A DNA stretch of 64,000 nucleotides from Vreelandella jeotgali Hwa (GTDB lineage Bacteria; Pseudomonadota; Gammaproteobacteria; Pseudomonadales; Halomonadaceae): positions 1 to 64,000 of the forward strand of contig NZ_AMQY01000017.1 in NCBI RefSeq assembly GCF_000334215.1. The letters run 5' to 3'. Both the position numbers and the translations under genes were made by a program. Position 1 is the stretch's first letter; every line of letters begins with the position of its first letter. This document shows positions 7,483-42,713 of this stretch, piece after piece. Below the pieces are notes generated by a model that saw nothing but the letters and a program-made list of their open reading frames with translations, made no database searches and was not told the origin of the DNA.

Positions 7483-8607
7483 ATGAACGAGACATCTTCT
7501 GCCTCATCGGCTCCCGCCTCGCTGAGCTACAAGGATGCCGGCGTGGATATTGACGCCGGCAACGCGCTGGTGGACCGCATCAAACACGTCGCCCAAAGCA
7601 CCTCGCGCCCCGAAGTCATGGGCGGGCTGGGCGGTTTCGGCGCCCTGTGCGAACTGCCCGCCGGCTACCGGGAGCCAGTGCTGGTCTCCGGCACCGACGG
7701 CGTGGGCACCAAGCTGCGGGTCGCCATGGAGCTTGACCGCCATGACACCATCGGCATTGATCTGGTGGCCATGTGCGTCAACGATCTGCTGGTCATCGGC
7801 GCCGAGCCGCTGCAGTTTCTCGACTACTATGCCACGGGCCGGCTCAACGTGGATATCGCCGCCGACGTGGTCACGGGAATCGGCGAAGGCTGCCGCCAGG
7901 CCGGCTGCGCGCTGGTAGGTGGCGAGACCGCCGAAATGCCCGGCATGTACAGCGGCAACGACTACGACCTGGCAGGCTTTTGTGTCGGTGTCGCGGAAAA
8001 GTCGGCGATCCTCGACGGCAGCCGAGTCGGCGACGGCGACGTCATTCTCGGGCTGGCGTCGTCCGGCCCCCACTCCAACGGCTATTCGCTGATCCGCAGG
8101 GTTCTGGATGTGAGCGACGCCTCGCTGGAAACCACCGTCGGCGATACCACCCTGGGCGATGCGCTCATGGCGCCCACGCGGATTTACGTCAAGCCGCTGC
8201 TGTCGCTGATGCATCACAGCGACACCGATGTCCATGCGCTCTCGCATATTACCGGTGGCGGCCTGCTGGAAAACCTGCCGCGCATACTCCCCGAGCACTT
8301 GGCCGCCCACCTGGACGCCGGCAGCTGGGAGCGCCCCGAGATATTCGACTGGCTCCAGCGCCACGGCAACGTCGATGACACCGAGATGCATCGCGTCTTC
8401 AACTGCGGCATCGGCATGGCACTGGTGGTGCCCGCCGACCAGGTCGAGCAGGCCTGGACGCACCTGGAAGCCCGGGGCGAAACCGTCTATCGCATCGGTT
8501 CGATCAACACCCGCGGAGACGACGAAGACAGCGTCACGCTGACTCACTCAAGCGAACTCACCCATTCCGAACTCAACCACTCAAGCGCAGGGGACACGCC
8601 GGCATGA
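7483..8607 (+). CDS. purM: Phosphoribosylformylglycinamidine cyclo-ligase PurM
   Basis: Closes the imidazole ring (FGAM to AIR) with ATP in purine synthesis; a cytosolic dimer. The 374-aa protein has the family core [14 protein letters not shown] (about residues 69-82), [11 protein letters not shown] (about 147-157) and [14 protein letters not shown]. The last 25 residues or so are a Thr/His/Ser/Glu-rich tail from short repeats at about 8540-8585 and lie outside the usual 345-350-aa protein. It overlaps purN by 4 bases. A TACAAT at 7405-7410 may be the -10 element, without a convincing -35. Confidence 0.95.
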
Positions 8608-9443: not shown

Positions 9444-10010
9444 TCAGGTACGCGGCAGGGTTACGCCGCGCTGGCCCATGTATTTGCCGCCGCGATCCTT
9501 GTACGAGGTTTCGCAGATTTCGTCGGACTCCAGAAACAGCATCTGGGCCACGCCCTCGTTGGCGTAGATCCGCGCCGGCAGGTTGGTGGTGTTGGAAAAC
9601 TCCAGCGTCACATGCCCTTCCCATTCCGGCTCCAGCGGCGTGACGTTGACGATGATACCGCAGCGCGCATAGGTCGATTTGCCCAGGCACATGGTCAGAA
9701 CGCTGCGCGGTATGCGGAAGTATTCCACCGTGCGCGCCAGCGCAAAGGAGTTCGGGGGAATCACGCAGACATCGTCCTTGACGTCGACGAAGCTTTTTTC
9801 GTCAAAGCCCTTGGGATCCACCACGGCCGAATGGATGTTGGTAAACACCTTGAATTCGTCGGCACAGCGAACATCGTAGCCATAGCTCGAGGTGCCGTAG
9901 GAAATAACCCGCTGGTTATTCACGTAGCGCACCTGCTCCGATTCAAACGGCTCGATCATCGCCTCGCGCTGCGCCATGCGGCGAATCCATTTATCTGATT
10001 TTATACTCAT
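9444..10010 (-). CDS. dcd: dCTP deaminase
   Basis: Deaminates dCTP to dUTP, the main route to dTTP in Gram-negative bacteria. The 188-aa protein has the trimeric dUTPase-like fold with the conserved [17 protein letters not shown] segment (about residues 90-106), the active-site Glu region [16 protein letters not shown], and the Gly-rich C-terminus that closes over the nucleotide. Length fits the monofunctional E. coli type. Confidence 0.94.
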
Positions 10011-33668: not shown

Positions 33669-36600
33669 TTACGCCTGACGCTGCGCATCACTCCCCACCA
33701 ACATTTTAAGCACCAGCATCGCGAACTGCCGGCCGGTTTCTTCGTTTTCCAGCAGCGGCATGGTGAGGGTTTCCTGGTCTTTCATCGCGTCCATCACGGC
33801 TTCCTGCACTCTTGCCGGTAGCAGGCCGTGCATCACCTGCTCCGGGGTGTGGTTATTGACCTGGGCCATGACCGCTTCGTCGCGTGAGATGCGGTCGGCG
33901 ATGCCGGTGACGAAGTGGAGCTTATCGTCGTCGCTGACTTCGGCGCCGTAGAGATCGTTCAGCCGCTCGATAATGTCGTCCAGGCGCTTCTTTTCCGGGT
34001 CATGGGGGTTGCCGGAGCCGACGTCGCTGACCGGCTTTAGCGGGTCGCCTTCGGCGACTTCCAGCTGCAGGCGCTTTTCTTCGCGCTTGGTCATCCGGTA
34101 GTGAGTCAGTTCAAGCTCGCTGACGTCGATGCTGTCGTCTTCCAGCAGGCGGTCGGTGCGCAGCAGCGGGTGCAGGTGGCGGGCGAACACGCACAGCTGC
34201 TCAAGCTCGGCGTCGTCAAAGGTGACGATCTGGCTTAAAAACTCGTAGGTGCGCACAAAGCTTTGCAGGTTCTTGCGGAACAGGTCCAGCTCGTCGCGGG
34301 TGGTGCCGGCTTCTTTCAGCTCTTGTTCGGTGCGTTTCAGGCCCTTGTCGTCGCCGTTCTGCTCGGCGGTATCGCGTTCGCTTTGCCAGATTTGCAGCTG
34401 CTCCAGCGCGAACCGGTAGCGCTGTTTGAAGCGATCCTGTGCCGGCTGGCAGTAATAGCTGAGGCTTGAGGCCGGGGCCTTGGGGTCAAAAAAGGCGTGG
34501 GCGAAGTGTTCCACTTCATCCCACTGGTAGATGCCGCTGGCGTCCAGGCTGCGCTGCAGGTCAAACACCACGTTAGGGTCGGAGACGTCGGCCAGCTCGG
34601 CCTTGCGGTAGTACGGGGCGAAGGCGGCGAGGATGTCCTCTTCATCGTTGTAGAAGTCGAGGATGAAGGTTTCCTTGCCGGGAAACAGCCGGTTAAGCCG
34701 CGAGAGCGTCTGCACGCAGTCGACGTTAGCGAGCTTTTTATCCACGTACATGGCGCAGAGCTTGGGCTGGTCGAAGCCGGTCTGAAACTTGTTGGCAGCG
34801 ATCATCACGTTGTAGTCGTCGGTGTCGAACGCCTGGGCCAGATCGCGGCCGTTGAGGTCAGGGTTGAGCAGCCGGCTGGTTTCGGTCACCTCTTCGGGGA
34901 TTACCTCGTCCTCCGCCACAGTGCCGGAGAAGGCCACCATGGGGTGAACGTCGGCGTAGCCCTGCGCCTGCACGTACTCGCGCATGGCCAGCTGGTAGCG
35001 CACCGCTTCCTGACGGCTGGCGGTGACCACCATGGCCTTGGCCTGGCCGTCGAGCAGGTGGCGCACGTTCTCGCGGTAGTGCTCGACGATGACCTCGACC
35101 CGCTGGGCGATGTTGTAGGGATGCAGCCGCACCCAGCGGGCCAGCGTGCGCGAGGCCTTTTTAGCGTCAACCTCGTACTCGTCGCCGTCCGGGTGGGCGA
35201 GCTTCCAGGCGGTGTTGTAGGTGACGTAGTTTTGCAGCACGTCGAGGATGAAGCCCTCTTCAATGGCCTGGCGCATGGAGTACAGATGAAACGGCTCGGG
35301 CTTGTTGTCGGCGCTGGCCGGCAGGCTCGGGTCCCGCGGGCGGCCGAACAGCTCCAGGGTTTTGGCCTTGGGCGTGGCGGTAAAGGCGTAGTAGCTGATG
35401 CGCTCGCTGGGGCGGCGGGCGGCCACGGCGGCACCCAGCATGGCATCCGCGCTGATCTCGCCCGCCTCGCCTTCGTCATCCTCGCCGGCGGCGGCCAGCA
35501 GCGCCTTGAGCTTGGTGGCGGAGCTGCCGGTTTGTGAGGAATGCGCCTCGTCGGCGATCACCGCGTAGCTGCCCTCGGCAAGCGCGGGGCGTTTATCCAG
35601 GGCGTCAAACAGCGCGGGGAAGGTCTGAATAGTGACGATGATGATGCGGGTGTTGCTGGCCAGCGCCTCGGCCAGCTGCTCGGACTTGCTCTGGCTGCCC
35701 AGATCCCGCGTGATGGGCCGCACAACGCCGTGGGCGTGCTCGAACTGGTAGATGGTGTCCTGGAGCTGGCTATCCAGCACCGTGCGGTCGGTGACCACAA
35801 TCACCGAGTTGAACAGCCGCGCCCCGCCGTCGGTATACAGGCTGGCCAGCTGGTGCGCCGCCCAGGCGATGGAGTTGGACTTGCCGGAGCCGGCGCTGTG
35901 CTGCACCAGGTAGCGCTTCCCGGGGCCTTCCTCCATCGTGGTTTGCACCAGCTGGTTCACCGCTCCCCACTGATGATAGCGGGGAAAGATCAGCGTCTCT
36001 TTGGTGCAGCGGCGGCCGTGAAAGTCCTCGACCGTTTTCTTTTCCAGATGCAGAAAGCGGCCCAGCACCTTCAGCCAGGCCTGCGGCGCGAAGACGTCCT
36101 CCCAGAGGTAGGCAGTGGCGTAGTCGTTGGGGTTTTGCGGCGGCGGGTTGCCCGCGCCCTGATCCTCGGTGCCGCGGTTGAACGGCAGAAAGAAGGTATC
36201 CTTGCCCGCCAGCCGGGTGGTCATGGCGACTTCCGCCTGGCTCACGGCAAAATGCACCAGCGCCCCGCGCTTGAAGGTGAGAAGCGGCTCGGCCTTGCGG
36301 GTAACGGGGTCTTTTAGCGGGCGATCCGTGCGGTACTGGCGTTTGGCGTTTTCTACCGTCTGCTTGAACTGGCTTTTCAGCTCCAGCGTGGCAGTGGGAA
36401 TGCCGTTGACGAACAGCACCAGATCCAGCCGTGGGTTATAGCTTTTGGCCGCGCTCTTCTCGCTGGCGTGGGGCGAATAAGAAACTTCAGGCACAACCCG
36501 CAGGCGGTTGGCGCGGTAGCGGGCGAGAGATTCCGGGTTCATGCCGTGGTCGGGCTGAAAGCTGCATAGATCAAACTTGATGCCCGGCACCTTAAAGCCG

Positions 36601-36860
36601 TGGCGCAGCACCTCAAGCGTGCCGGCCTTCTCCAGCTCCCGCACCGTGCGCTGGATAAACGCCCGCTCCGGCGCCTGGGGGTTATGCTTGCAGAACTGCG
36701 CCCAGCGCTCGGGCCAGGCGTCCTGCACGTAGCCCAGCAGGTCTTCGGTGTAGAGCGCGCTTGCGCGGTCGTAGCCGCTGGCCGCCCCGGTCAGCCAGCC
36801 GCCACTGGCCATGGCGGCGATAATATCCTGCTGAAACTGCGCTTCCCTGCTGCTGGCCAT
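33669..36860 (-). CDS. hsdR: Type I restriction enzyme, R subunit HsdR
   Basis: Motor and nuclease subunit of a type I restriction system, 1063 aa. The N-terminal nuclease domain has RLDLVLFVNGIPTATLELKS (PD-(D/E)XK-type Asp and ELK, about residues 145-165). The helicase core follows, with Walker A HSAGSGKSN (about 322-330), DEAH (ADEAHSSQTG, about 438-447) and TFTATPK-like motif III (YYAFTATPK). It is the last gene of the island's restriction locus, separated from the nuclease gene by 204 bases without visible features. Confidence 0.95.
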   Translation of the reverse strand: MASSREAQFQQDIIAAMASGGWLTGAASGYDRASALYTEDLLGYVQDAWPERWAQFCKHNPQAPERAFIQRTVRELEKAGTLEVLRHGFKVPGIKFDLCSFQPDHGMNPESLARYRANRLRVVPEVSYSPHASEKSAAKSYNPRLDLVLFVNGIPTATLELKSQFKQTVENAKRQYRTDRPLKDPVTRKAEPLLTFKRGALVHFAVSQAEVAMTTRLAGKDTFFLPFNRGTEDQGAGNPPPQNPNDYATAYLWEDVFAPQAWLKVLGRFLHLEKKTVEDFHGRRCTKETLIFPRYHQWGAVNQLVQTTMEEGPGKRYLVQHSAGSGKSNSIAWAAHQLASLYTDGGARLFNSVIVVTDRTVLDSQLQDTIYQFEHAHGVVRPITRDLGSQSKSEQLAEALASNTRIIIVTIQTFPALFDALDKRPALAEGSYAVIADEAHSSQTGSSATKLKALLAAAGEDDEGEAGEISADAMLGAAVAARRPSERISYYAFTATPKAKTLELFGRPRDPSLPASADNKPEPFHLYSMRQAIEEGFILDVLQNYVTYNTAWKLAHPDGDEYEVDAKKASRTLARWVRLHPYNIAQRVEVIVEHYRENVRHLLDGQAKAMVVTASRQEAVRYQLAMREYVQAQGYADVHPMVAFSGTVAEDEVIPEEVTETSRLLNPDLNGRDLAQAFDTDDYNVMIAANKFQTGFDQPKLCAMYVDKKLANVDCVQTLSRLNRLFPGKETFILDFYNDEEDILAAFAPYYRKAELADVSDPNVVFDLQRSLDASGIYQWDEVEHFAHAFFDPKAPASSLSYYCQPAQDRFKQRYRFALEQLQIWQSERDTAEQNGDDKGLKRTEQELKEAGTTRDELDLFRKNLQSFVRTYEFLSQIVTFDDAELEQLCVFARHLHPLLRTDRLLEDDSIDVSELELTHYRMTKREEKRLQLEVAEGDPLKPVSDVGSGNPHDPEKKRLDDIIERLNDLYGAEVSDDDKLHFVTGIADRISRDEAVMAQVNNHTPEQVMHGLLPARVQEAVMDAMKDQETLTMPLLENEETGRQFAMLVLKMLVGSDAQRQA

Positions 36861-37064: not shown

Positions 37065-38159
37065 TTATGTAGCCTCTTTCTGCCATTCACTTTCCATGCT
37101 GATAATAGCTCGAAGATAGTCCGCTGCGGCTTTTTCTATGGCCTCCCAGTGCATTTCCTTAAAGTCATGAAAGAGAAGGTAATAGTCTCTGCCAATGCTG
37201 TGATTATCGAAGTGGTTGACATCTATGCCATGCTTTCTCAGCGCATTGATATCGCCATTTCTCTTGTCAATATAAGGTTGCACCCTCACCGTTTTAGGAT
37301 GATCTTTTGACAAAAAAACGACGACGATAGAGTTGCCTTTCCATCCAAGTGGCACAAAATGAAGTGCCGGCCCGACAGGCCAGTTTTTCGTCGACGATGT
37401 AATCGGTATCTCAAGATCACCGAGCCGACTATTGATACCTTCCTGCAGTCGATAACGAAGGCTTTCCAGCGCATCATTCCTGGCTTGAGTCAGAGCCTCG
37501 ATATTACCCAGGTTCTCCAACACATACTGCTCTTGAGCGTCGGTCAGGGTATCGGTCACGGTCAGGTTCTCCAGATGAATGATGAACTCGCGCAAAAATA
37601 GCAGCCACTTGCTTTCGCCGTGCTGCTCACAAAGGCAACGTACAGCAACTCGCAGGCGAGCCAAGAAGTCAGCGTACCTTATACCCAGCCAGCCGGTCGG
37701 GTGCGGCGCCAGACCTTCTGGCGACAACACGACGCACAGAACTTGCCGGTTGTCTTGACCTGACAAGCGTAGGGAGAGGTCTTCACTATAGTGAGCAAAG
37801 TCGTTGCTGAGATCGTGATATATCTTGTGCTCGACCGCCAGCACCCAGCGCTCTGACTCTAGCACCAGATCAATGCGCTGCTGCTGAGACGTCACCCACT
37901 CACGCGCTGGAGAACGGATCAAGTATCTCTCTTCCAACTCCGGCTGCTGCTGATCGGGAAGGCATTCAAGAAGCGCCGACAACACCACATTGCCGAATTC
38001 ATGCTCTGCATCGGAATCAAGAAAGAAGGCCAGCAAATCTGAAGTCGGGTTCTCGAAGTAACCGCGGGCACCTACATCGAAGAGGGTCCTTTCGCGGTGT
38101 GCTAACTGCTGAAGATCGGGCATACCGCTAAGTAAAGCTTTCATGCGTTCAACGCCCAC
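37065..38159 (-). CDS. PD-(D/E)XK superfamily nuclease
   Basis: A 364-aa protein with an N-terminal GYFENPTSDLLAFFLDS segment and the catalytic triad in RIDLVLESERWVLAVEHK (Asp97, Glu110, Lys112), as in the PDDEXK_4 family (PF14281, as recalled). Proteins of this type occur in restriction-modification and other defence loci; the function is unproven. The GTG at 38159 has AGGGAG 5 bases upstream; ATG 38144 is possible. It lies 15 bases downstream of the GIY-YIG gene in the same direction. Confidence 0.85.
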   Translation of the reverse strand: MGVERMKALLSGMPDLQQLAHRERTLFDVGARGYFENPTSDLLAFFLDSDAEHEFGNVVLSALLECLPDQQQPELEERYLIRSPAREWVTSQQQRIDLVLESERWVLAVEHKIYHDLSNDFAHYSEDLSLRLSGQDNRQVLCVVLSPEGLAPHPTGWLGIRYADFLARLRVAVRCLCEQHGESKWLLFLREFIIHLENLTVTDTLTDAQEQYVLENLGNIEALTQARNDALESLRYRLQEGINSRLGDLEIPITSSTKNWPVGPALHFVPLGWKGNSIVVVFLSKDHPKTVRVQPYIDKRNGDINALRKHGIDVNHFDNHSIGRDYYLLFHDFKEMHWEAIEKAAADYLRAIISMESEWQKEAT

Positions 38160-38174
38160 ATTTTCTCCCTTACG

Positions 38175-39104
38175 CTATTCCGGAGTAGCTTCTGCTGCTT
38201 CGCTCACCCGCTGATCCTGCCACTCGCCGTAGGTCAGCCCGCTGCCTTCCGCTTTCCAATCCTTGCGCCCGTTAGCCGCTCGGCCTGCCACCACCGCAGC
38301 CGCTGCGCTGGGGCTGGAAAAGGCGTAGTCCGTAGTAAAGCGACGCAGATTATTCCCGCTGTCTGCCAGCACACCGTCATCGCACAGCTGTTGAAATAGC
38401 ACCTGATAACCGCCGTCTATCCCGGCCCACTCACCGCGCGCGAGCGAGCCTTCCAGCACGTAAAATTCATCATCAATCTCTTGGGCACGCGCCTTAATGC
38501 CGTGCTTGGGTACTTTCATGCTGAAGTCGGGCGACGGCTCAACGGAAACTTCCGACTCTTTTTTGACAGTAGATGGCATCGCAACATCGCGCAGAAAATC
38601 CAACCCCAACACCGGCAGCACGGTACGAATTTGCTCAGTGAAAAACGCCATATCCGCACGATCCGGCTCCGGCAGATTGATATAATCGTGTGCCGTGTTG
38701 TTGATAAGCCGGCAGCGGCCAATCTTGCCGGCACTCTGGATCAGCAGGCTTTCCAAGTATTTGACGTGGGCCTTGGTTAGGTTCTGGTCCTTGCTGGTCA
38801 CCAGGCAGACCTTCTCCCAAAAATCCTTGCCGCCCTTATCTTCGGGGCGGTTATGCTGTTTGAGCCGCGTGCCCACGTCGTCGCTTTCGCCGATGTAGAC
38901 CAGCGGGCGCAGGCTGTTCTCGGGATCAGGCCCCACCAGAAAATAAATGCCGGTGCGCCCACACTCCGGACGCTGCACCAGCTCGATAAGCTTGCTGCGC
39001 GGCCCGGTGAGAACGTGGCCGGTCCAGTTCATGATCTCGGCGGACAGCAGGCCATTGGGCGTGCCATCCACGAGAAATAGCCGGATACTTCGTCCCTGAA
39101 TCAT
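38175..39104 (-). CDS. GIY-YIG nuclease with DUF4357 domain
   Basis: A 309-aa protein. The GIY-YIG motif is GIYFLVG and LVYIGESDDVGTRLKQHN (about residues 52-82), followed by SKDQNLTKAHVKYLE with the catalytic Glu. The C-terminal 55 residues match DUF4357 (SPSAAAAVVAGRAANGRKDW), a small domain often attached to such nucleases and to restriction genes. It may cleave DNA as an accessory function of the hsd locus. An 81-base gap separates it from hsdS. Confidence 0.87.
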   Translation of the reverse strand: MIQGRSIRLFLVDGTPNGLLSAEIMNWTGHVLTGPRSKLIELVQRPECGRTGIYFLVGPDPENSLRPLVYIGESDDVGTRLKQHNRPEDKGGKDFWEKVCLVTSKDQNLTKAHVKYLESLLIQSAGKIGRCRLINNTAHDYINLPEPDRADMAFFTEQIRTVLPVLGLDFLRDVAMPSTVKKESEVSVEPSPDFSMKVPKHGIKARAQEIDDEFYVLEGSLARGEWAGIDGGYQVLFQQLCDDGVLADSGNNLRRFTTDYAFSSPSAAAAVVAGRAANGRKDWKAEGSGLTYGEWQDQRVSEAAEATPE

Positions 39105-39185: not shown

Positions 39186-40388
39186 CTAGCCACGCACGTC
39201 GATCTTGCCGGTCACGGCGGCGGAGATTAGCGCCGAGCGGCGTTCTTGGAATAAATTAATTCCATCAAATGCTTCTTTGATTAGCTCTTTGGTTACCTTA
39301 TCTATCTTAGTGATCCTTTCTTGTATTTTTAACCGTTCATCAGGCGAAGGGGAGGATGCTACAACAATAGAACCGAGAGCCTCACTGGTGAGCTTGGGCT
39401 GAGCAGATCCTGTGACATGAATGGAAAGATCTAAATCTTCAATCACCTCAGCCCAGTATTCTAGGTTATCATCGATAGGCTCTAGAATATGGGCATGGTT
39501 ATTGACCCAATACCTACCTCTAGCAACGAAAGAGATAGGAGACGACCTCGCAAGCAGGTTAGCACCATCCTCGGAAACAAGAACATGATCCTTTTCAAAT
39601 ATAAAATCATCTATCCAATCAATAACCCCAGAGGCACCGTAGTAAGGAAACTCACCTTGTCGCCCCCCGCGATCTTCAGCTTTAAGCGGTATTCTTCTTC
39701 CATCTAAAAATCTAAAAAACATCTTGATCGGGGCCACTACCCAATGCGCCGGCACTTCCCCCAGCCACTCCACGCCGGAATCTTTCATCGGCGCGTCGGG
39801 ATCGAGCCCCTTGGTGACAGCATGGGAAATCACCGCTTGGCGCTTTTCCTTGAGCAGTGCGATCAGACGCTGCTGCTCGGCAATCAGCGCGTCGATGCGG
39901 GCGGTTTCGTGGTCGAGGAAGGTAGCGATCTGGGCTTGCTCTTTATAGCTCGGTAACGGCTGGATATGATTAGCCAAATCGAACTGACTCATACTTGGCA
40001 GCGCCGTATTGGTTGAATAAAGAGAAAAAGGGATTATAGTCGCTGCATAATACGCATACCTCCCATTAGCTCTTGGCAGAACCTCTGTATAAAACATGGT
40101 ATCAACCGTCCAAAACTTCCCCTTAACATATAAAGGCTTATCAATAGTGCCTTTCCTTCCAAGCAAGACAGACTCACCATCATATAAATAATCCGTTGCG
40201 TAGGTGAACTGTCCGCCGGAACCAATCACTGGATAGCTAGTAGGCTCAACGCTCTCCACTTCTTTATAGTCTTGTCCGCCTTGGATTCTAAGCAAATGTT
40301 TGAGGCGCCCTATTTGCCAATGCACCGGCACGTCCCCCAGCCATTCGACGCCGGAGCCCTTGTATTCGGGATAAGCTGGGAAACTCAT
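39186..40388 (-). CDS. hsdS: Type I restriction enzyme, specificity subunit HsdS
   Basis: DNA-recognition subunit of 400 aa. Two target-recognition domains are each introduced by the repeated segment SGVEWLGDVPVHW (about residues 12-24) and SGVEWLGEVPAHW (about 210-222), with coiled-coil spacer helices after each (AQIATFLDHETARIDALIAE; RLKIQERITKIDKVTKELI). The TRDs are more AT-rich than the conserved parts, as expected for exchangeable units. ATG 40388 follows GGGAGGGCGAGTC; its ATGA overlaps the stop of the 49-aa ORF. Confidence 0.93.
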   Translation of the reverse strand: MSFPAYPEYKGSGVEWLGDVPVHWQIGRLKHLLRIQGGQDYKEVESVEPTSYPVIGSGGQFTYATDYLYDGESVLLGRKGTIDKPLYVKGKFWTVDTMFYTEVLPRANGRYAYYAATIIPFSLYSTNTALPSMSQFDLANHIQPLPSYKEQAQIATFLDHETARIDALIAEQQRLIALLKEKRQAVISHAVTKGLDPDAPMKDSGVEWLGEVPAHWVVAPIKMFFRFLDGRRIPLKAEDRGGRQGEFPYYGASGVIDWIDDFIFEKDHVLVSEDGANLLARSSPISFVARGRYWVNNHAHILEPIDDNLEYWAEVIEDLDLSIHVTGSAQPKLTSEALGSIVVASSPSPDERLKIQERITKIDKVTKELIKEAFDGINLFQERRSALISAAVTGKIDVRG

Positions 40389-40534
40389 GACTCGCCCTCC
40401 CAGCACATTTTCAGAAAAGCCACGAAAAACCCGCCAAAGTGTGCGTCAGTGAGAGGCATGGCGGGTGTGTCATCGGCCATGCTGAGGCGGCGCGCGCAGG
40501 CTGTCAACGCGTGCTTTACGTGTTCGATCAACAT
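40385..40534 (-). CDS. 49-aa ORF coupled between hsdM and hsdS
   Basis: The ATG at 40534 overlaps the hsdM stop (TAATG) and the TGA at 40385-40387 overlaps the hsdS ATG (ATGA), so the frame is exactly fitted between the two genes. It encodes 49 residues: a basic helix (MLIEHVKHALTACARR) followed by a short hydrophobic stretch (FGGFFVAFLKMCW). No family is recognised. Its tight coupling suggests that it is translated, perhaps to stabilise or modulate the methyltransferase complex. Confidence 0.65.
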   Translation of the reverse strand: MLIEHVKHALTACARRLSMADDTPAMPLTDAHFGGFFVAFLKMCWEGES

Positions 40535-42522
40535 TATACCGCCATCTCCTCGATCATCTGCTTGATCCGGTCGGTGCAGGCCTGGAGGTCGGCGTCGATG
40601 TCTTCCAGCGGGCGCGGGGGCTCGAAGGTGTAGAAGTGGCGGTTGAAGGGAATCTCGAAACCGACGATGCCGATGCGCTCGTCCAGCGGGTCGATTTTAC
40701 TTTTGTCGACCCAGGCGTCGGGCACGTGGGGCTTCACTTCGCGCTCGAAGTAGTCGAATACCAGCTCGTCCAGCGGCACGTTTTCGTGATCGCGCAGGCC
40801 GGTGTCGGGTTCAGGATTGCCCTTTTTATCGCGGCAGATATCGGCCTCGGAATCGCGCTCGCCAAGGGCGGCCAGCACGGCCTTTTGCAGCGGCGCGCCG
40901 ACTTTCATACCGGCCGGCAGGTGTTCGGCAAAGGCGGTCTTCAGCACCTTGAGAAACGCCTCGCGGTTAGTAAACACTTGCTCTTCGCCCAGGCTTGCGC
41001 AGGCGTTGTTCAGCGCGTCGCGCTCGGCATCGGCAAGTTTCTGGATAGGCTTTTGTTCGCCAAGCCGGGCCAGGCGCTCGGAGCTTGCCTGGACGTTCAG
41101 GCGCAGCGGGCGCTCCACGGTAATGCGGCGGTAGCCGAAGGCCTCGACGGGGAATATCTTGCTCTCTTCGCTTTCGGCAAAGCGGCCGTACAGGCGCACC
41201 ACCTCGTCGAGGTCGCGGTCGGCGATAAAGTGGCGCTTGCTGCCCAGCGACTTGCGCATTTTGCTGCCGCGGGCGGTGGCGTCGATCAGCTGCACCTTGC
41301 CCCGGCGCTCGGCGGGCTTGTTATTGGATAGCACCCACACGTAGGTGGCAATGCCGGTGTTGTAGAACAGATCCGTCGGCAGGCCGACAATGGCTTCGAC
41401 CATATCGTGCTGCAGCAGGTAGCGGCGGATTTCCGACTCGCCGCTGCCCGCGCCGCCGGTAAACAGCGGCGAGCCGTTGAGGATAATCCCGATGCGCGAG
41501 CCGCCCTCTTTTTTGGGGCGCATTTTGCTCACCAGGTGCATAAGAAACAGCAGCGAGCCGTCGGAGACTCGGGGCAGCCCGGGGCCAAAGCGGCCATCAA
41601 AGCCCTTGTGTTTATGCTCGTCGACGACGCCTTTCTGAACTTTCTTCCAGTCCACGCCGAACGGCGGGTTGGCGAGCATAAAATCAAACGGCTCGCCGGC
41701 CAGCTGGTCGTCGGAAAGCGTGTTGCCCAGCTTGATTTGGCTCACGGCCTGGCCCTTGATCAGCATGTCGGCCTTGCAGATGGCGTAGGACTCGGGGTTG
41801 AGCTCCTGGCCGTGGAGCGAGACGCTCATGCCGCCGCTGACCTGCTGCATGTAGACATCGCTTTCGGAGAGAAAGCCGCCGGTGCCCGCGGTAGGGTCGT
41901 ACACGGTGACGATGCCGCCGCTTTTAAGCTTGTCGTCCTGCCCGGTGAGCACCAGCGAGGTGGTCAGGTGTACCACGTCGCGCGGGGTAAAGTGCTCCCC
42001 CGCCGTCTCGTTGGAGCTTTCGGCAAACTTGCGGATCAGCTCTTCAAACACCAGCCCCATGCCGTAGCCGGACAGCCGCTCGGGGCTCAGGTCGGTTTTG
42101 GCAAAACGCTCGACCACCTGATACAGCAGGTCGACGGCTTCAAGCTGCTGGACGTGGTTCTCGAACTCGAAGTGTTCGAAAATCTCCCGGGCGTCCTGGC
42201 TGAACGAGCGCACGTAGCTCATCAGATCATCGGCGGTCTGGGTTGGCGACAACGTGCCCAGCGTCAACGGCGAGGCGTTGAAAAACGGCTGGCCGGCCTC
42301 GCTCAACAGTAATTTGTCGCGCACCGCATCGGGCTTGTTCTGATGCGCCTCGGCCGCCTCAAGCACTTTCGCCTTGGTGGGTTCCAGCACGCACTCCAAC
42401 CGGCGCAGCAGGGTGAACGGCAGGATGATGCGGCCGTATTGAGACTGCTTGAAATCGCCGCGCAGAAGATCCGCCACGGACCAGATAAGCGCCGCCTGCC
42501 GAGAGTGGTTTTCCGTGTTCAC
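40534..42522 (-). CDS. hsdM: Type I restriction enzyme, methyltransferase HsdM
   Basis: Adenine-N6 methyltransferase subunit, 662 aa. The helical N-terminal domain (about 1-160) is followed by the SAM-binding motif DPTAGTGGFL (about residues 219-228) and the catalytic NPPFG (about 293-297). HsdM with HsdS modifies host DNA; adding HsdR gives restriction. The GTG at 42522, with GGGGAAG upstream, was chosen because the family starts near NTENHSRQAALIWSVADLLRG; the longer start at 42597 adds 25 unrelated residues. First gene of the operon, divergent from topB. Confidence 0.94.
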   Translation of the reverse strand: MNTENHSRQAALIWSVADLLRGDFKQSQYGRIILPFTLLRRLECVLEPTKAKVLEAAEAHQNKPDAVRDKLLLSEAGQPFFNASPLTLGTLSPTQTADDLMSYVRSFSQDAREIFEHFEFENHVQQLEAVDLLYQVVERFAKTDLSPERLSGYGMGLVFEELIRKFAESSNETAGEHFTPRDVVHLTTSLVLTGQDDKLKSGGIVTVYDPTAGTGGFLSESDVYMQQVSGGMSVSLHGQELNPESYAICKADMLIKGQAVSQIKLGNTLSDDQLAGEPFDFMLANPPFGVDWKKVQKGVVDEHKHKGFDGRFGPGLPRVSDGSLLFLMHLVSKMRPKKEGGSRIGIILNGSPLFTGGAGSGESEIRRYLLQHDMVEAIVGLPTDLFYNTGIATYVWVLSNNKPAERRGKVQLIDATARGSKMRKSLGSKRHFIADRDLDEVVRLYGRFAESEESKIFPVEAFGYRRITVERPLRLNVQASSERLARLGEQKPIQKLADAERDALNNACASLGEEQVFTNREAFLKVLKTAFAEHLPAGMKVGAPLQKAVLAALGERDSEADICRDKKGNPEPDTGLRDHENVPLDELVFDYFEREVKPHVPDAWVDKSKIDPLDERIGIVGFEIPFNRHFYTFEPPRPLEDIDADLQACTDRIKQMIEEMAV

Positions 42523-42713
42523 TGTGCTTCCCCGCGTCAATGCCAAAGTGACAAAAGCCCCATGATACACAGCGCAAGCGCACGCATGCAGGGCCACATT
42601 AGTGCCAAAACGACAAAAACCGGGAAGCGGTGCGTATCGCCTCGCGCGGGCGGTGCGCTTGGCGGTGTCGGCTCTGCTACCATGACGCTCTGGTTTTTAT
42701 CCGAGTGCGCCCG

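Follow-up and report, generated by a model that had tools for sequence, protein, structure and literature searches.

Among the closest described systems to the locus considered here is RCd22–AbiF of Clostridioides difficile, which pairs an RNA of Rfam family RF03085 with a toxin gene of the Abi_2 family (PF07751). According to the available text of the report on this system, the abiF RNA RCd22 neutralises AbiF by binding, in cis as well as in trans, and the terminator of RCd22 strongly limits read-through (PMC12373285). AbiF is also the proposed ancestor of Cas13, as stated in the accessible parts of two papers (PMC12737573, PMC12165695). Toxin genes can be embedded in restriction–modification (R-M) operons. 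Abi2/AbiF/AbiD are listed as such in a table of PMC3710099, and prrC of EcoprrI is an established example (PMC3874165). The accessible portions of these two papers do not describe an RNA, a bridging open reading frame (ORF), or an orphan state. Leader ORFs are a further point of comparison. In the available part of a review, coupled ribosomes are said to antiterminate intrinsic terminators, and terminators within the first 100 nt of an ORF are said to give near-complete termination (PMC7858274). Among the matches listed from the open-access literature, in the text available and with subscription papers outside its range, no abiF RNAs inside hsd operons, no bridge ORF over abiF RNAs, and no orphan abiF RNAs acting as counter-defence are described.

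The locus lies in a stretch of 64,000 nucleotides from Vreelandella jeotgali Hwa (contig NZ_AMQY01000017.1, positions 1 to 64,000), referred to here as the window. The interval between hsdM and hsdS is best read as an orphan abiF antitoxin-type RNA gene within a type I R-M operon, lying under a translated bridge ORF, and we give this reading a probability of about 0.6. The locus resembles RCd22–AbiF in its hairpin family, in the promoter-like hexamers upstream, and in the run of T residues behind the hairpin; in relatives of the window, the RNA also stands directly before an abiF gene. The window differs from what the available text gives for RCd22 in that no abiF gene lies beside the RNA, which forms part of an operon and is overlain by a coupled ORF, and in having one hairpin rather than two. 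With PrrC of EcoprrI and the embedded Abi2/AbiF/AbiD genes, as far as the accessible text of PMC3874165 and PMC3710099 goes, it shares the placement of RNase-type toxin genes among R-M genes. As in the leader ORFs of the reviewed examples, translation across the hairpin would control termination. Unlike in those examples, so far as the review's available part shows, the hairpin is also an antitoxin-type RNA and lies between structural genes (PMC7858274).

The hsdM–hsdS junction and its RNA

The genes hsdM, hsdS, and hsdR occur together in the window, each identified by Pfam and PADLOC (Table 1), and the preliminary description was right to place the junction in a type I restriction operon. It was exact, too, in reporting an ORF that occupies the entire hsdM–hsdS interval through TAATG and ATGA overlaps. 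The last A of the hsdM stop codon TAA (40534-40536) is the first base of the ATG of this ORF, and its TGA (40385-40387) overlaps the ATG of hsdS (40386-40388). The 49-residue product of this bridge ORF is MLIEHVKHALTACARRLSMADDTPAMPLTDAHFGGFFVAFLKMCWEGES. The hsdM reading frame opens further upstream, with an alternative GTG at 42597. Between hsdS and hsdR (37065-39104) are a DUF4357/GIY-YIG-like gene (PDC-S14) and a PD-(D/E)XK gene (PDC-S26), both of PADLOC candidate defence families.

Table 1. Features of the R-M operon and of the hsdM–hsdS junction, in window coordinates
Feature	Position	Strand	Evidence or remark
hsdR	33669..36860	-	Pfam SWI2_SNF2, HSDR_N; PADLOC REase_I
hsdS	39186..40388	-	Pfam Methylase_S; PADLOC Specificity_I
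Bridge ORF	40385..40534	-	49 codons and stop; TAATG overlap with hsdM, ATGA overlap with hsdS
GGGAGGG, possible Shine-Dalgarno sequence of hsdS, within bridge ORF	40395..40401	-	By eye
abiF-type RNA, orphan	40421..40468	-	Rfam RF03085 match at 40429-40465; leave-out covariance model R2
Run of five T behind the hairpin, terminator-like end	40425..40429	-	Sequence; fold
-10-like CAGCAT, weak (3 of 6)	40479..40484	-	17 nt spacer; 13 nt before hairpin
-35-like TTGACA, putative own promoter of RNA	40502..40507	-	Placement conserved across abiF RNAs
hsdM	40534..42522	-	Pfam N6_Mtase and HsdM_N; PADLOC MTase_I

The RNA under the bridge ORF has a full-length match to RF03085, with all pairs kept. The Rfam score of 36.1 bits (E 3.9e-5) is 0.9 bit below the curated gathering cut-off of 37 bits, and the RNA is therefore called abiF-type. 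The hallmarks of the family are present, including the outer 6-bp stem, the inner XGC/GCX pairs, and a conserved CCUCUC-type loop. A covariance model, denoted R1, was seeded with 41 abiF RNAs from bacterial genomes, leaving out a weakly matching 42nd (L090). Because the window RNA is one of the 41 seeds, a second model, R2, was rebuilt without either RNA of this genome, and R2 still matches the window RNA at 58.9 bits (E 8.8e-18). Among the 41 RNAs, 98.3% of cells are paired, and both sides have changed in five of the nine pairs. In 500 shuffles, none equalled the RNAs in four of five covariation measures, and 56 did so in the fifth, the number of pair types. The window strand folds with -20.6 kcal/mol (z -4.3). 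A P4/C4-type immunity RNA, another candidate, was given up when the Rfam search identified abiF. A blastn search found no copy of the RNA in E. coli genomes.

The hexamers listed in Table 1 may form a promoter that belongs to the RNA itself. R1 gave 98 matches, of which 70 RNA rows were retained after removal of those below 26 bits and of repeat views of one place. With relatives kept in, the second hexamer of the best promoter-like pair falls 12-14 nt ahead of the hairpin in 53 of the 70 RNAs, and the mean placed promoter score is 8.39 of 12, against 6.21 (sd 0.13) in base-shuffled upstream sequence. A generic scan of the window's interval for promoters and terminators found neither.

The double coupling of the ORF had been held to be unlikely by chance. 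A null model was used in which the end of hsdM, the RNA, and the start of the next gene are held fixed while the spacers are shuffled by dinucleotides. For the window alone, the frame remains open through the RNA in 42% of shuffles and also stops at hsdS in 29%; the single observation is therefore not strong, and improbability emerges only over many loci.

Toxin genes, orphan RNAs, and fossils

In relatives, the DNA beyond hsdM shows the stretch around DTPAMPLTDAHFGGFFV as a hairpin followed by a T-run, often ahead of extra genes. This view comes from 46 of 52 hsdM loci, those in which DNA beyond hsdM was read, and 15 of the 46 have an abiF RNA no more than 300 nt behind hsdM. HsdM is the nearest annotated upstream gene for 27 of the 70 RNA rows, representing 21 loci, a set that includes loci added from other searches. 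An AbiF gene follows the RNA in 16 of these 21 hsdM-RNA loci, one of them short (L129), and none was found after the RNA at L003, L030, L045, L171, or in the window. An annotated plasmid record gives the gene order methyltransferase, Abi family protein, subunit S, and helicase. In the window, no abiF (Abi_2) gene adjoins the RNA, and the junction does not hold an AbiF toxin–antitoxin pair. The next gene is hsdS, directly behind, and the RNA is therefore an orphan.

Two other sites in the same genome carry parts of such a module (loci L078, L311, and L080). On contig 10, a second abiF RNA (39204-39252) is followed by a truncated AbiF. On contig 13, an Abi_2 gene (279-896) is 34% identical to the plasmid AbiF, and no abiF RNA was found near it.

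The 72 nt behind the orphan RNA in L003 and L305b align to the 3' end of abiF, and both alignments beat all of 1000 shuffles and 1000 genome windows. Their best AbiF-end matches are L005 and L050; the reference set of AbiF ends contained one RNA sequence (L303), which was not the best match of either tail. A fossil in the 36-nt tail of the window was considered and set aside as not significant, as 173 of 1000 shuffles and 169 of 1000 genome windows gave an alignment as good. The locus L305 comes from a genome (G651) of the same family as the window and holds three abiF RNAs in one type I R-M operon. Its order is hsdM, RNA, AbiF, orphan RNA, and hsdS, with a further orphan RNA before hsdR and the fossil abiF 3' end behind the middle RNA. 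Orphan abiF RNAs also lie ahead of hsdR or an HsdR-like gene at L004 (~9537-9584), L082/L305 (~7875-7922), L096/L306, and L101/L307, and there a terminator-like hairpin thus precedes the restriction subunit. At L302 (1498-1545), an abiF-type RNA is placed, by eye, inside an apparent tRNA gene cluster, and no AbiF was found in the 3-kb locus.

The strongest of the rival explanations is that the window carries a decaying remnant of a lost AbiF module, with an ORF that is open by chance and with neither ORF nor RNA functioning at present. The missing abiF gene, the fossil tails behind two other orphan RNAs, and the frequent openness of the window's frame among shuffles agree with such a remnant, as does the weak -10 element. 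The first base of that element is C in all three aligned orphans and T in all five aligned AbiF-bearing relatives, a difference that could mark weaker promoters and fits decay. Decay sits less well with the RNA itself. The three orphans before hsdS (window, L003, and L305b) are identical pairwise at 44 of 48 RNA positions, whereas hsdM of the window and of L003 has diverged at 79 of its 285 four-fold sites. The bridge is also still open in the orphans L003 (116 aa) and L305b (68 aa). A remnant without present function is a possible explanation, though not the one we favour.

The bridge ORF across loci and its peptide

A bridge was defined as an ORF that starts within 6 nt of the hsdM stop and reads through the RNA, and it was scored in the 21 hsdM-RNA loci against the null model described above. 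Bridges are present in 16 of the 21, where 5.3 are expected (P 2.4e-8), and in every one of the 16 the start lies at position -3 or 0. Fifteen loci, against 3.5 expected (P 1.3e-11), are double-coupled, their bridge ending no more than 12 nt from where the next gene starts. The excess persists when two near relatives are removed (15 of 19 bridged, P 4.8e-8) and when the window and the three loci that gave rise to the idea are removed with them (11 of 15, P 1.5e-6). A comparison of frames within the 21 loci finds the first RNA crossed without a stop by the coupled frame in 17, and by the other two frames in 4 and 8. At L035, the hsdM-coupled ORF spans only the first of two hairpins, and the locus was scored as bridged and not as double-coupled; L304, whose junction looks the same as that of L037, was kept out of the count. 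The five loci unbridged at the hsdM stop are L030, L043, L049, L051, and L171. Among these, L043 has starts at +9/+12, and L049 and L051 start at +43 behind AAAGGA.

Seven further RNA arrays, from newly fetched or longer stretches, include five bridged ones where 2.0 are expected (P 0.005). L303, L305a, and L305b, which had no role in forming the idea, are all bridged; L308b, L309, and L307 were already known in outline and hence are not independent of it. The two unbridged arrays are L305c, before hsdR, and L307, whose ORF begins 14 nt beyond the preceding stop codon yet spans both hairpins. The bridge ORF covers the hairpin and T-run in the window, and this coverage recurs among the 21 loci; a translation-dependent attenuator would show such coverage together with read-through that changes with translation. 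Because the -3 or 0 overlap and the open frame recur in 16 of 21 hsdM-abiF RNA loci, translation of the bridge ORF, coupled to that of hsdM, is probable. Of the earlier proposal of a translated small protein, the translation part is thus supported and a functional small protein is not.

Bridges might instead be maintained because they couple translation to the next gene or avoid Rho-dependent polarity, and not because they silence the hairpin. The stop/start overlaps at both ends would be expected of such an arrangement, and relatives free of the RNA have hsdM overlapping hsdS directly (for example, L002 and L004). An untranslated intergenic gap would expose the message to Rho. By eye, however, Shine-Dalgarno-like stretches precede the window's hsdS and some of the abiF genes, and coupling may therefore be dispensable for initiation. 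Antitermination, Rho protection, and translational coupling are not separable by sequence. We consider coupling or Rho protection as the sole reason for the bridge rather unlikely.

The peptide is a different matter from its translation. Peptide searches of genomes returned no full-length homologue of the 49 residues, which tells against the small-protein claim, and a pattern-based search of the genome collection returned nothing. Across 274 genomes of the class there are 22 partial matches outside the window's own genome. Six of the seven that were checked fall on an abiF RNA, the exception being L056, and a plasmid match of the bridge peptide falls on an abiF RNA as well (L076). The best of the partial matches align around DTPAMPLTDAHFGGFFV. 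Pfam and PADLOC gave no match to the 49 residues, Pfam also gave none for six bridge peptides, and PHROGs gave none for the window ORF and five bridge peptides. The Pfam "Ash"/P4 Icd-like proteins, suggested by the motif NTPAKPMPTDVG, were tried and rejected, with no match in the window ORF and six bridge peptides.

The 16 bridges range from 47 to 116 residues. Their pre-hairpin peptides are unrelated, with E >0.5 for every pair except L010/L037 (E 6e-5). Eleven cross the hairpin in phase 0 only; in the other five, phase 1 or 2 is used over a hairpin. Between L010 and L037, the pre-hairpin codon changes are 1 synonymous to 16 non-synonymous, and between L049 and L051, which start at +43, they are 2 to 13. 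Taken together, unrelated pre-hairpin peptides, varied phases, and these ratios indicate that openness is kept and sequence is not. The preliminary description had named an interval varying in length or frame as evidence against its small protein, and in the main this is what is found, with differing bridge lengths and all three phases in use. The exception is the RNA class of the window (CATGCCTCTC). All 11 of its bridged loci, the 8 from the first set plus L303, L305b, and L309, share a single phase over the hairpin. Common descent of the junctions may be the cause of this constant phase, or the peptide stretch over the hairpin may be constrained in this class. Apart from that class, peptide and frame are not kept together in relatives, as they would be in a conserved small-protein gene.

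A real small protein regulating the HsdM:HsdS ratio or restriction would fit the overlaps at both ends, the recurrence of coupled ORFs at the same place, and the TPAMPL..FGGFF part made common by the single phase of the window's class, but it is very improbable given that no full-length homologue or family was found, that pre-hairpin parts are unrelated with other phases in 5 of 16 bridged loci, that purifying selection is not seen before the hairpin in two diverged pairs, and that the RNA accounts for the shared TPAMPL..FGGFF part. The bridge ORF is probably not a conserved small protein. The best reading is that translation across the embedded RNA and terminator is conserved and that the peptide is not.

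Phage RNAs and probable translation across the hairpin

The abiF RNA is also carried by phages. The accessible text of one paper mentions it for cyanophage S-CREM1 and for three phages recorded in Rfam (PMC9964418). The 53-nt RNA matches six phage records, two of which are the same Salicola phage, and in the three T7-like Aeromonas phages fetched the connector and scaffold genes flank the hairpin. R1 matches all four fetched Aeromonas and Salicola phage stretches (L180-L183) at 43.5-63.5 bits, two of them with a compensatory CCCGAC/GTCGGG stem. In these four stretches, no Abi gene is annotated and none was found by an AbiF profile. Viral contigs were also scanned by pattern; of the 116 stretches found, 80 were loaded (L186-L265). 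The full outer stem is present in 68 of the 80 viral loci, although the pattern had not required its 3' arm, and a T-run is present in 65. AbiF is absent from the fetched DNA of 78 of the 80; where 600 nt or more of downstream sequence is available, the figure is 70 of 72. Bacterial genomes, by comparison, have AbiF behind 31 of 42 RF03085 matches, as counted by hand with fragments included (Fisher P 2e-17, between two sets that came from different searches). No HsdM was found in the viral contigs. The AbiF-less phage RNAs are candidates for an RNA-only counter-defence against AbiF.

In the window, one stretch of DNA would serve two transcripts. A transcript begun at the putative promoter of the RNA would lack a start codon ahead of the hairpin; it would fold and end at the T-run, giving a short RNA. 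On the operon transcript, ribosomes re-initiating on the hsdM stop would cross the hairpin, RNA polymerase would not be stopped, and hsdS and hsdR would remain expressed. Since termination early in an ORF is reported to be efficient, such a shield would need ribosomes already trailing from hsdM. The toxin gene may have been lost by internal deletion, leaving an RNA and a bridge that either are relics or protect against AbiF from another source.

A broader reading, which we offer tentatively and hold to be less than an even prospect by some distance, joins translation-gated antitoxin RNAs in restriction operons with orphan copies that act in trans as decoy antitoxins against AbiF. Ribosome flow from hsdM would hold the hairpin open and allow expression of AbiF, hsdS, and hsdR; once an infecting phage stopped host translation, this transcript would end at the hairpin. 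The orphan RNAs would then provide toxin immunity in hosts and an RNA-only counter-defence in phages.

What seemed to be a small gene becomes a testable design, in which a single stretch of DNA would have to code for protein when carried on one transcript and fold into an antitoxin-type RNA when carried on the other. The design suggests how a toxin–antitoxin cassette whose RNA bears a terminator can sit in an operon without silencing the genes downstream. It also carries a warning for the annotation of small ORFs, as conserved hairpins can mimic conserved peptides. The orphan RNAs of hosts and phages offer a direct way to ask whether the RNA alone defeats AbiF.
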